Below are positions 15,934 to 19,425 of a stretch of 38,710 nucleotides of DNA, piece by piece. The notes under the pieces are model-generated. The model saw nothing but the letters and a program-made list of their open reading frames with translations. It was not told the DNA's origin and did not search any database. The stretch is taken from positions 1 through 38,710 of the IMG/VR virus record IMGVR_UViG_3300032249_000960, one strand, 5' to 3'. The position numbers and the translations under genes were made by a program. This stretch comes from a virus. Every line of letters begins with the position of its first letter. Position 1 is the stretch's first letter.

Positions 15934-16099
15934 GCCTCAATCTACTCGACCATATATCGAGGAACGTATCGAGCACGACGGTTCTGTTTCATATTGCGTT
16001 CACGGTCGCGGGATGATGTTCTGCCACCGGGAACGATGGCAGGCAGACGTGAAGTTGCATTACATGCAATGGTCCGTCAGTAATCCCAGCGCACCCTAG
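15914..16099 (+). CDS. possible small rightward protein
   Basis: 61 codons; starts at 15914 (AGGA three bases upstream) or 15932. The central part, YIEERIEHDGSVSYCVHGRG then HRERWQADVKLHYMQW, reads like a small beta-rich domain and not like shadow sequence. It faces against the surrounding leftward operon and overlaps the endolysin end by 23 bases, which lowers confidence. Not recognised. Confidence 0.35.
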   Translation: MDDASSMPQSTRPYIEERIEHDGSVSYCVHGRGMMFCHRERWQADVKLHYMQWSVSNPSAP

Positions 16100-17138
16100 G
16101 CCGACTCTTTCGTATTCCGAGGTGGATAAAACCCTTGGGAGCGCCATAGCCAAGACTGTACGGCCAATTCTTGTCGCACCATTCTTGGACTTTGTATACG
16201 TCTGCGCCATCAATGTAAAAATCAACAGCTCCAACGCTAGGTGCGTCATAGAGGTGCTCTGAGCTGCTGGCGCCACCAACGGCCCGGTTCACGGCCGGCG
16301 GCCTGTATCCCGAGGTGATGATGATCGGCTTGCCACCGAACGCCGTCCGCACCCGCTCGAGGAACGCCGCCAGCTCAGCAGCCGTGTCCACCTGATGCTG
16401 GTGGTCGAATCGCCGGGCCTCCTGATCAAGCGCAAACTCGCCCAGGGTGATGTGCGGCGTGATCCGTGCCGTGAACGGGCTGTTGAGGGACAGCTTCGCC
16501 GGCTGCTGTTGCATCTCCGGCAGGCCCCAAAGCCGGCCCTCAGCCTGTCGCCGCCGCAGGAGGCCAGCTTCGACGCTGGTGCCCGGGTTGCGATAGAGCA
16601 GCATCGCCTCAGGGACGGCCGCCCAGTCTTTCTCCTTCAACCGCTTGCTGATGGTCTCGAACCCGGTCGAGCCATAGAACCCGCTGCCGAGGTTGTAGGC
16701 GAAGCTGATCAGCGCCGATTGCTTGTCACCAGACATCGCGTTCCAGAACGGAACGGTGGCCCGAAGTTTCTCGACAATGCGCTCGATTTCAACATCGAGG
16801 AGCTTGCTGGCTTCGATGACCGTGATCTTGTCGCCGCGCTGCACCTTGCGGCCGTCGCTGTACCTAGTGGTGCCGTAGCCGATGGTCCAGGGATCGCCGC
16901 CGCTAAGGGGATCTGGGTAGGCCGACAGATGGCAGCCCTCAAATTCTTTGATAAGTTTTGCTGCGGAATCGTAATTATGCAGCTTTCCGCCTTGTTGCCA
17001 AGTCTTGTACCAAGGCTGATCCTTATTAAAGACTTCTGGCGCAACCTTTAACAGCTCTGTTTCTAATTCAGAGATAGCCGCCATCTGGTGTGGCGTGCCG
17101 TGCTTGTAATAGCGGAACAGATCGCTCAGTTTGACCAT
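16077..17138 (-). CDS. bifunctional endolysin: T4-type lysozyme plus M15 peptidase
   Basis: 353 residues. The lysozyme (GH24) domain spans about 55-205: LIKEFEGCHLSAYPDP with catalytic E67 and D76, DPWTIGYGTT with T85, and later FAYNLGSG. A second domain, about 215-353, is a zinc carboxypeptidase of the M15 type: TSGYRPPAVNRAVGGASSSE leading to H295, GAVDFYIDG with D306, and GFIHLGI with H339. It should cut both the glycan and a peptide bond of peptidoglycan. The first 55 residues have no motif. The two-domain form, and the HLYDAP insertion between metal ligands, are familiar from cyanobacterial sequences. It overlaps the upstream frame by 13 bases and belongs to a lysis group with the small membrane proteins up to 18080. 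Confidence 0.88.
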   Translation of the reverse strand: MVKLSDLFRYYKHGTPHQMAAISELETELLKVAPEVFNKDQPWYKTWQQGGKLHNYDSAAKLIKEFEGCHLSAYPDPLSGGDPWTIGYGTTRYSDGRKVQRGDKITVIEASKLLDVEIERIVEKLRATVPFWNAMSGDKQSALISFAYNLGSGFYGSTGFETISKRLKEKDWAAVPEAMLLYRNPGTSVEAGLLRRRQAEGRLWGLPEMQQQPAKLSLNSPFTARITPHITLGEFALDQEARRFDHQHQVDTAAELAAFLERVRTAFGGKPIIITSGYRPPAVNRAVGGASSSEHLYDAPSVGAVDFYIDGADVYKVQEWCDKNWPYSLGYGAPKGFIHLGIRKSRPRVRWDY

Positions 17139-17329
17139 GGTGATTTGATGCTCATGGGGCCACCCAGCAACCGGCTCTCGCCAGTCTGCAGCTCATCATT
17201 CACCGGTTCATGAGTGATGACTGGCTGTGGCTCCGCCGGCTGGGCGGCGTGCCAATCTGCCTCAGCTTGATCGATCTTGGCCGGCAGGGTCAGCTCGAAC
17301 CACCACCGGCGCCAACCGACCTCTAGCGC
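17126..17329 (-). CDS. possible -1 frameshift extension of the holin-like protein
   Basis: From the slippery heptamer A AAA AAG at 17335-17329 the -1 frame stays open for 67 residues (ALEVGWRRWWFELTLPAKID, QAEADWHAAQPAEPQPVITH, ending SIKSPWSN). It has no ATG and no well-placed alternative start of its own near its beginning; the only upstream start is a TTG at 17431 inside the holin-like gene in another frame. A slip would fuse 45 holin-like residues to this hydrophilic, Pro-rich tail, 112 residues in all. Alternatively the tail is not translated. Confidence 0.4.
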   Translation of the reverse strand, partial: ALEVGWRRWWFELTLPAKIDQAEADWHAAQPAEPQPVITHEPVNDELQTGESRLLGGPMSIKSPWSN

Positions 17330-17463
17330 TTTTTTGCCTTTAGCAGATTCAGGATTTGAAACACCAATTGAATGATGCTGTTGCTTTTGAGGGGCGACAA
17401 GGCAATCAGCTCGCTGGCAGCAGCGACACAAACCCAGAAAGCTGGATGGCTCAGAAAATCCAC
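17323..17463 (-). CDS. holin-like small membrane protein
   Basis: 46 residues from GTG 17463; the frame is closed upstream by a TAG. The sequence MDFLSHPAFWVCVAAASELI, then ALSPLKSNSIIQLVFQILNL and LKAKKR, has two hydrophobic segments and a basic end, and resembles short membrane proteins next to cyanophage lysins (pattern FLSHPAFW-V-x-AAASE-I-ALSPLK, from memory). Position immediately upstream of the endolysin supports a holin or antiholin role. Its last sense codons before the stop are a canonical -1 slippery sequence. Confidence 0.55.
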   Translation of the reverse strand: MDFLSHPAFWVCVAAASELIALSPLKSNSIIQLVFQILNLLKAKKR

Positions 17464-17545: not shown

Positions 17546-17857
17546 ATGGTTCAACCGGGCGATGAAATAAATTTTTTTGATACAAGGGCTAAAAAGGCTC
17601 GGTACAAGCAACATGTCTTAAATTTTTGGAACAATCAGTGCGCTTATTGCAAAGAGCCCCTTGGTCGCTCTGGAACGCTTGATCACATTGTGCCTCGGTC
17701 CAAGGGAGGCGAAACAGTTCGATCCAATCTGGTGGCATGCTGCTACTCGTGCAACACCAGAAAAGGATCGCTGTCAGAATGGAGGGAATGGTTTAGGGCC
17801 CAAGATTTTTGGACCCAAGATGCAGAAGACGCTTTAGACTTGTGGCTCAACGGCTAA
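17546..17857 (+). CDS. HNH endonuclease inserted in the lysis region
   Basis: 103 residues from ATG 17546. Core NQCAYCKEPLGRSGTLDHIV, then PRSKGGETVRSNLVACCYSC, NTRKG, with both C-x2-C pairs, the DH, and the N. It ends in a W-rich segment EWREWFRAQDFW. It points rightward within an otherwise leftward operon and is AT-richer than its neighbours, as expected for a mobile homing-type gene. Its stop overlaps the end of the next leftward gene by 11 bases. The HNH at 13775 is a likely paralogue. Confidence 0.85.
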   Translation: MVQPGDEINFFDTRAKKARYKQHVLNFWNNQCAYCKEPLGRSGTLDHIVPRSKGGETVRSNLVACCYSCNTRKGSLSEWREWFRAQDFWTQDAEDALDLWLNG

Positions 17858-18080
17858 GCTCAAGCTTTAGAATACGTTGACCCTGATCGTCCACCCTGTT
17901 TTCAAGCGCCGTAATCTGTTTTTCGAATCGAGCTTGGCTTTGCAGTAGGTCGTCCAGTCGTGACGGTACTGTGTAAACCAGATAGCCGATGCCACCCATG
18001 GTGGCACCAGCTCCAATCACAATCAATCCAGCCAGCGCTTCCTGCCGAACGGAGCGCCAAAATCCAGGTTGCGCGTCCAT
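17847..18080 (-). CDS. membrane-anchored coiled-coil protein (spanin- or holin-like)
   Basis: 77 residues from ATG 18080; an in-frame ATG at 18092 is also possible. After MDAQPGFWRSVRQEA comes a hydrophobic, Gly-rich span LAGLIVIGAGATMGGIGYLV, then a coiled-coil tail LDDLLQSQARFEKQITALEN, RVDDQGQRILKLEL. A single span followed by a coil fits an inner-membrane spanin or a class III-like holin. It belongs to the lysis set, separated from the holin-like gene by the inserted HNH gene. Confidence 0.6.
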   Translation of the reverse strand: MDAQPGFWRSVRQEALAGLIVIGAGATMGGIGYLVYTVPSRLDDLLQSQARFEKQITALENRVDDQGQRILKLELSR

Positions 18081-18106
18081 GGCAGGCAGCAATGGCAGCA
18101 GTCAGT

Positions 18107-18570: not shown

Positions 18571-19425
18571 TCAGATTTCCGGCATCTCGTACTCTTGCGT
18601 AATGTTGCAATAATGCTTAAAAATAACCTCACTAGTATTGCCAGCCCAGGCGGCCACCTGCGGCACAGGGATGCCGGCCTCGATCCAATGGCTTATGGCT
18701 GTATGCCGGCAATCGTATGGCCGGTAAAGGTGTGAGATCAGTCCAGCCTGGTGTAGCGGCTGCAGTTTCTTGCGGAAGTAACTCTGGAATGCCAGCCGGT
18801 CCCATGGGAACAGGTAATCCGACTCTCGCGGCAAGGTGTCAAGGATTGCCTGGCACTTGCCGTTCAAGGGCACCCATCGCTTTTTGTTTGTCTTGGTGCT
18901 GTCCTTCAGGCCATGGGTCAGCGTCCAGTTCTGATGCACCAGGATCTTGTTCTCTTTGATGTCTGCCCACCGCAGCGCCCTTACCTCACCTGTCCGCATG
19001 GCGGTCTGCAGCATGAACTCGGTGTACTGGGACCAGTTCACGGTCCGATAGGTCAGTTTTGCCTCAAGCGCTGCCAGCACCAGGCCGATCTCGTTGCGCG
19101 GGATAACGATTATCTCTTCGTCACGCTGCGGCGCCTTCGGCATCTTGAAGCTGGCCAGTGGGTTGCGGTCTAGGTAACCAACGTCTTCCTGCGCCGCCCA
19201 CTTGTACATGGTCTTTGTGTACATCGCCACACGCCGCGATGACAGGACAGGCTTCTGCCCCAGCACCCAGATCATCACCTGCCGTGCCTGTTCCAGATCC
19301 TGCACCGGGCAGCGACTGAGCCACTTGGTGACCTGCCGGTAATCAGACGTCAGACTGGTTGGGCACAGCGAGATGGAACGCTCCGTCAGGAAGGCGTCCC
19401 ATAGCTCGCTGACTGTCAGTGTCAC
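18571..19425 (-). CDS. int: tyrosine recombinase / phage integrase
   Basis: 284 residues from GTG 19425. The N-terminal half (1-95) is a SAM-like core-binding domain (VSELWDAFLTERSIS, MYTKTMYKWAAQ). The catalytic part has AMRTGEVRALRW with R144, TKTNKKRWVPL with lysine 178 or 181, YDCRHTAIS with R240, AGNTSEVIFKHY with nucleophile Y272. The first His of HxxR is Y237 and the later His is N263, substitutions that also occur in active integrases of cyanobacterial prophages. The product should integrate or excise the phage genome. There is little room beside the gene for an attachment site: 20 bases upstream and 27 downstream. Confidence 0.88.
   Translation of the reverse strand: MTLTVSELWDAFLTERSISLCPTSLTSDYRQVTKWLSRCPVQDLEQARQVMIWVLGQKPVLSSRRVAMYTKTMYKWAAQEDVGYLDRNPLASFKMPKAPQRDEEIIVIPRNEIGLVLAALEAKLTYRTVNWSQYTEFMLQTAMRTGEVRALRWADIKENKILVHQNWTLTHGLKDSTKTNKKRWVPLNGKCQAILDTLPRESDYLFPWDRLAFQSYFRKKLQPLHQAGLISHLYRPYDCRHTAISHWIEAGIPVPQVAAWAGNTSEVIFKHYCNITQEYEMPEI

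Follow-up and report, generated by a model that had tools for sequence, protein, structure and literature searches.

The window analysed here is the complete IMG/VR virus record IMGVR_UViG_3300032249_000960 (positions 1 to 38,710; 38,710 nucleotides). Synechococcus phages, S-CBS3 foremost, are the best annotated relatives of this 38.7-kb record, and the virus is a cyanophage. A small membrane-protein gene, referred to below as the slip gene, follows the tail fibre genes and adjoins an endolysin gene (Table 1). As judged from its sequence, the 81-residue protein encoded further upstream is a candidate second holin or spanin, and similarly built small genes lie directly upstream of the slip gene in S-CBS3, S-CBS1, KBS-S-2A and S-B28. 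In the window, the 81-aa gene and the slip gene are separated by an inserted HNH endonuclease gene (17546-17857), which runs the other way, on the plus strand. An integrase gene (18571-19425), whose DNA is 76% identical to that of S-LBS1, is located near the lysis cassette and suggests a temperate cyanophage. The endolysins of the window (16995-17138) and of loci L002, L004, L005 and L089 share the N-terminal motif LFRYYK--PHQ-AAI-EL, which precedes the enzyme domain in endolysins of differing catalytic type.

Table 1. Features at the slip-gene locus (positions in the window).
Feature	Position	Strand	Remarks
Membrane-protein gene, 0-frame	17323..17463	-	46 aa; GTG start 17463; TAG 17325-17323
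Slippery heptamer A AAA AAG	17329..17335	-	in phase, one codon ahead of stop
-1 frame tail	17126..17329	-	67 codons + stop; C-terminal end SIKSPWSN; Ka/Ks 0.13
RNA hairpin, candidate frameshift stimulator	17269..17321	-	7 nt 3' of heptamer
Endolysin, phage lysozyme + peptidase M15	16077..17138	-	ATG at 17138; overlaps tail end
81-aa protein, N-terminal hydrophobic segment + coiled coil	17847..18092	-	sequence reading; weak Rz-like match

The slip gene ends in GCA AAA AAG CGC TAG, and its AAAAAAG stands in the phase X XXY YYZ relative to the 0-frame, as stated in the initial annotation of this DNA, which had read the heptamer as a -1 slip site. The frame entered after a slip is open for the 67 residues given there (ALEVGWRR...SIKSPWSN) and closes at a stop (17128-17126) just within the endolysin gene. 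The predicted slip product of 112 aa begins VDFLSHPAFW...LLKAKK and continues beyond the junction as ALEVGWRRWWFELTLPAKIDQ...LLGGPMSIKSPWSN.

Relatives were collected in three IMG/VR scans with the membrane protein, each of which yielded at least about 470-520 confirmed relatives. Among the matches listed, 239 loci (178 distinct sequences), most of them picked by likeness to the membrane part, were analysed and dereplicated to 103 relatives. These share ancestry, and neither the heptamer counts nor the Ka/Ks pairs given below are phylogenetically independent. A scan of bacterial genomes returned only four contigs, all in metagenome-assembled bins of non-cyanobacteria, which are possibly misbinned phage.

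Conservation of the heptamer, which the initial annotation had proposed as a check, was found in 96 of the 103 dereplicated relatives, all in phase (81 with A AAA AAG and 15 with G GGA AAG); an out-of-phase heptamer occurred in none of the 103. The end of the heptamer always lies 0 or 3 nt (0-1 codon) ahead of the 0-frame stop. The codon preceding AAA AAG has A in its third position regardless of whether it encodes Ala, Gly, Pro, Val, Thr, Glu, Gln, Ser or Lys, and xxA AAA AAG is present at 80 of 83 terminal Lys-Lys sites, with 6.6% expected per Lys-Lys pair. The corresponding figure for the neighbouring endolysins is 3 of 13 (Fisher p 7e-9, relatedness ignored). Among named phages, A AAA AAG is found at the homologous place in S-CBS3, S-CBS1, KBS-S-2A, WH11-B and S-B28, and G GGA AAG in S-EIVl, with an open -1 frame behind each. 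The comparison of homologues shows the heptamer to be kept by selection.

The -1 frame carries the marks of a protein. Its median length is 78 codons, versus 12 for the +1 frame. Over 173 pairs, reading the tail region in the -1 frame gave a median Ka/Ks of 0.13, against 1.29 and 2.19 for the two remaining frames; the median for the membrane part was 0.10, so that the proposed comparison of substitution rates gave low values for both coding frames. Conservation of the tail starts exactly at the junction in several subfamilies, and its C-terminal end follows the pattern LQTG-S--LGG--SI(H/K)(A/S)PW or DDLHIRAPW. The loci from a scan seeded with the tail were combined with the earlier ones, redundant contigs among them. 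At all 289 loci with both parts, the tail occupied the membrane gene's -1 frame, and it was never in frame with that gene or alone; three further tails lay at contig ends. On this comparative evidence, the -1 frame is shown to be a selected coding sequence joined to the membrane gene.

Membrane part and tail were folded separately for structure modelling. The AF2 model of the tail had a mean pLDDT of 89.7 and a pTM of 0.46. A fold search of the PDB with this model gave no match, and sequence searches of PHROG and the PDB with the tail gave no convincing match. In BFVD, the fold search returned two entries at E <= 0.001, which by length and identity are probably the tail fragments annotated in S-CBS3 and S-EIVl; S-PM2 T4-GC 852 followed at E 0.02.

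The hairpin drawn in the initial annotation proved real and bigger than first depicted. Its predicted stability is -29 to -31 kcal/mol, with z scores of -2.9 relative to dinucleotide shuffles and -3.0 relative to synonymous-codon controls, and its 7-nt spacer falls within the 5-9 nt after the heptamer at which a 3' structure is expected for a -1 frameshift. In 86 relatives, the 60 nt beginning 6 nt into the tail had a mean z of -1.16 (p 3.5e-11, relatedness ignored), with weaker values further downstream. The hairpin sequence varies among subfamilies. In 16 close relatives, the helices were retained in 78-90% of cells; strong covariation was looked for in the hairpin and only modest covariation was found, so the claim for a hairpin rests on its stability and placement. 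A conserved upstream Shine-Dalgarno stimulator was not found in 93 relatives: at most 16 of them have a similar motif 1 nt before the heptamer, and about five have one 11-19 nt before it.

Heptamer and tail are mostly kept or lost jointly in the aligned homologues, with real exceptions. With a single exception, no relative devoid of the heptamer has an intact tail. The S37-C6-type phages, for instance, encode Lys-Lys at the slip position as AAG AAA and have neither the heptamer nor the conserved tail, and L215 has GGGAAAT and a tail interrupted by a stop. The loss of one without the other was seen at a few loci: L042 and L046 retain the tail with the weaker site A AAG AAG; L228 and L232 have the heptamer and no tail, with the endolysin following immediately; and these two and L218 keep the heptamer in front of an extension of just 10-12 codons (10 in L218).

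Taken together, the site has the properties of the X XXY YYZ class (0-frame phase, protein-level selection on the -1 frame, no independent start), and all comparative checks (heptamer, Ka/Ks, starts, joint loss) lend strong support to the programmed -1 frameshift put forward in the initial annotation. With high confidence, we read the slip gene as a small membrane gene that is decoded in two ways by means of a -1 slip at its heptamer. The majority of ribosomes would read through to the TAG and yield the 46-aa membrane protein. In a fraction of them, the two tRNA-Lys would move back by a single base on A AAA AAG, aided by the hairpin 7 nt downstream, and these ribosomes would produce the 112-aa form, in which the shared membrane part is followed by the conserved soluble tail with its SPW motif. 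We infer that the slippage is brought about by tandem tRNA-Lys in the host.

Other routes to a tail protein were weighed against this frameshift. The tail could be a separate gene with a weak start, or be translated after termination and re-initiation at the 0-frame stop, coupled to its neighbours. A CTG overlaps that stop in 59 of 94 relatives and a TTG or GTG in 5, but the overlapping codon is CTA, GTA or TTA in 30 of the 94, window included. The records of S-CBS3 (gp22), S-CBS1 (gp23) and S-EIVl annotate the tail as a stand-alone gene with an internal start; however, in 89 of 93 relatives the stretch from the last -1 stop to the junction contains no ATG, GTG or TTG; 26 of the 93 have no ATG throughout the -1 frame and 4 have none of the usual starts in it. 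The initial annotation had described the tail as lacking a start, which holds across the family but not in the window itself, where an upstream TTG (17431) is present; this codon is not conserved, and L012, for example, has no start at that place. A separate tail gene would also leave the in-phase heptamer unexplained, as well as conservation that begins at the junction. This explanation is very improbable, and a tail gene with its own start was rejected on the basis of the start-codon test and the tail-seeded scan.

Slippage of RNA polymerase on the A run, giving mRNAs one base longer or shorter, would fit the presence of such a run in most relatives and its length of exactly six A in 76 of 80. 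Runs of six A are short for transcriptional slippage, though, and in 15 of the 103 relatives the same place is occupied by GGGAAAG, which has no long homopolymer. Transcriptional slippage, which would explain neither the phase of the heptamer nor the 3' structure, is disfavoured by these G GGA AAG relatives and appears very improbable. A chance heptamer next to a chance open frame might be entertained, given that heptamers also occur elsewhere in the loci (139 AAAAAAG in 475 kb). It is contradicted by conservation, phase, Ka/Ks and co-loss, and the comparison of relatives has already refuted it, leaving it a negligible likelihood.

The link between membrane gene and tail was missed by the annotators of S-CBS3, S-CBS1, KBS-S-2A, S-EIVl, S-B28 and WH11-B; apart from the three records with a separate tail gene, the tail has no name of its own in the records of the annotated relatives. 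The terminase small subunit of WH11-B (L007:1729-2016) has been annotated with a start that falls within the tail frame. Its true start is probably a later ATG (MTKQKKATEDQF), and the record may contain an annotation artefact.

The initial annotation designated the 46-aa protein as holin-like. It is a small membrane protein adjoining an endolysin, but it matches only PHROG 22542 (E 1.3e-23), a family of unknown function, and no family in Pfam, so that these two collections gave no sequence match to a known holin family. Its hydropathy is moderate (17-residue mean 1.72 at residues 9-25), and it has the basic end KAKKR. The protein was modelled as two helices (pLDDT 77), and a conserved Glu lies inside the first helix of the membrane protein. 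From its context, the holin label is plausible. A relative of the membrane protein consisting of the TM part only was seen in the microvirus genome SD_MC_44 (L090:1498-1626), outside the annotated genes and between the scaffold and replication genes.

An endolysin-type gene is adjacent to the slip gene in 74 of the 103 relatives and overlaps the tail in the window; a role in lysis is therefore likely, and on this context we favour some such role, with reservation. S-EIVl retains the tail even though the gene that follows is convergent; the tail is therefore more than a carrier of ribosomes to the endolysin start. We tentatively propose that, in cyanophage siphoviruses and T7-like podoviruses, the short form acts as the pore former, a membrane protein of the holin type, and the tailed long form modulates it, with the slip rate fixing their ratio. 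Timing of lysis by this ratio is a hypothesis. The frameshift could also be real and the gene serve another membrane function, for example with the APW motif of the tail binding a host or virion component. Besides the lack of a Pfam match and the PHROG of unknown function, this non-lysis reading draws on eight tail-bearing podovirus-type relatives, which have the T7 GC55/terminase small subunit gene next door and not an endolysin; the tail-less P60 likewise has the T7 GC55/terminase small subunit gene next door. Moreover, the C-terminal motif of the podovirus-type tail is common to cyanomyovirus T4-GC 410 proteins outside lysis cassettes. Against it stand the endolysin-type neighbours of most relatives and the distant tail-less relatives S-SRP01, DSL-LC07 and S-CBS4, which likewise adjoin a lysozyme or glycoside hydrolase. 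A function outside lysis is conceivable, though less likely than a role in lysis.

The mechanism proposed for the slip gene is already known from the frameshifts in dnaX, tail chaperones and capsid genes; what is new is the class of gene. In E. coli dnaX, a -1 programmed frameshift occurs at A AAA AAG with a downstream hairpin, and the slip gene shares heptamer, phase and hairpin with it. The dnaX shift truncates the protein, whereas that of the slip gene would extend it, and the slip gene has no conserved upstream Shine-Dalgarno element. In the phage tail-assembly chaperones (lambda G/GT and relatives), a short gene likewise gains a C-terminal domain through a -1 shift close to its end, and the S-EIVl-type relatives have the heptamer of the lambda G/GT site, G GGA AAG. 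Genes of the lambda G/GT type, however, immediately precede the tape measure gene; the slip gene occupies a different place and encodes a membrane protein adjoining an endolysin. The T7 capsid gene 10A/10B likewise gives a short and a C-terminally extended form from one gene, but these are structural proteins unrelated in sequence to the slip gene. In the lambda S105/S107 holin and antiholin, two forms of one membrane protein are made at a set ratio from two starts. The functional likeness suggested here would involve two ends instead of two starts and, unlike lambda S107, the longer form would add a soluble tail of 67 aa. The membrane proteins of P60 (gp39), S-SRP01, DSL-LC07 and S-CBP1 have a related membrane segment and a lysozyme gene nearby, but neither heptamer nor -1 tail; they carry a short charged in-frame C-terminal extension.

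A frameshift in a holin-type gene was not found in the open-access literature searched. Publications pairing frameshifting with holins or lysis concerned tail chaperones, capsid or IS3 transposase; lysins and the history of MS2 come up in the PRFect survey (PMC10885494), and the word holin is absent from it. A 2025 study of the cyanophage holin-like protein MaMV-DC ORF70 (PMC12843271) describes such cyanophage proteins as little researched and mentions no frameshift. Programmed -1 frameshifting in phages has so far been known mainly from virion-assembly genes (tail chaperones, capsid). If our reading is true, a deeply conserved frameshift in a membrane gene of the lysis cassette would add a means of setting a protein ratio at lysis, and the lysis of Synechococcus phages, whose holins are poorly known, becomes directly testable. 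The frameshift also brings to light a protein end, conserved among cyanophages, which gene callers overlook or provide with a false start.

Cyanomyovirus T4-LIKE GC 410 proteins (L324:1267-1665, L329:1267-1653 and L327:1327-1722; P-HM1, S-SSM7 and P-RSM1) carry the motif VETGVFGDEGWSI-I-NP, which is closely resembled by FTETGSFGEDGWSISLTSPW in the tail of WH11-B. A C-terminal module common to cyanophages, found in slip-gene tails and in GC 410, is possible. In P-RSM3, the GC 410 gene (L326, about 1230-1400) is interrupted by a -1 shift at an A run, which represents either an error of sequencing or another slip site.
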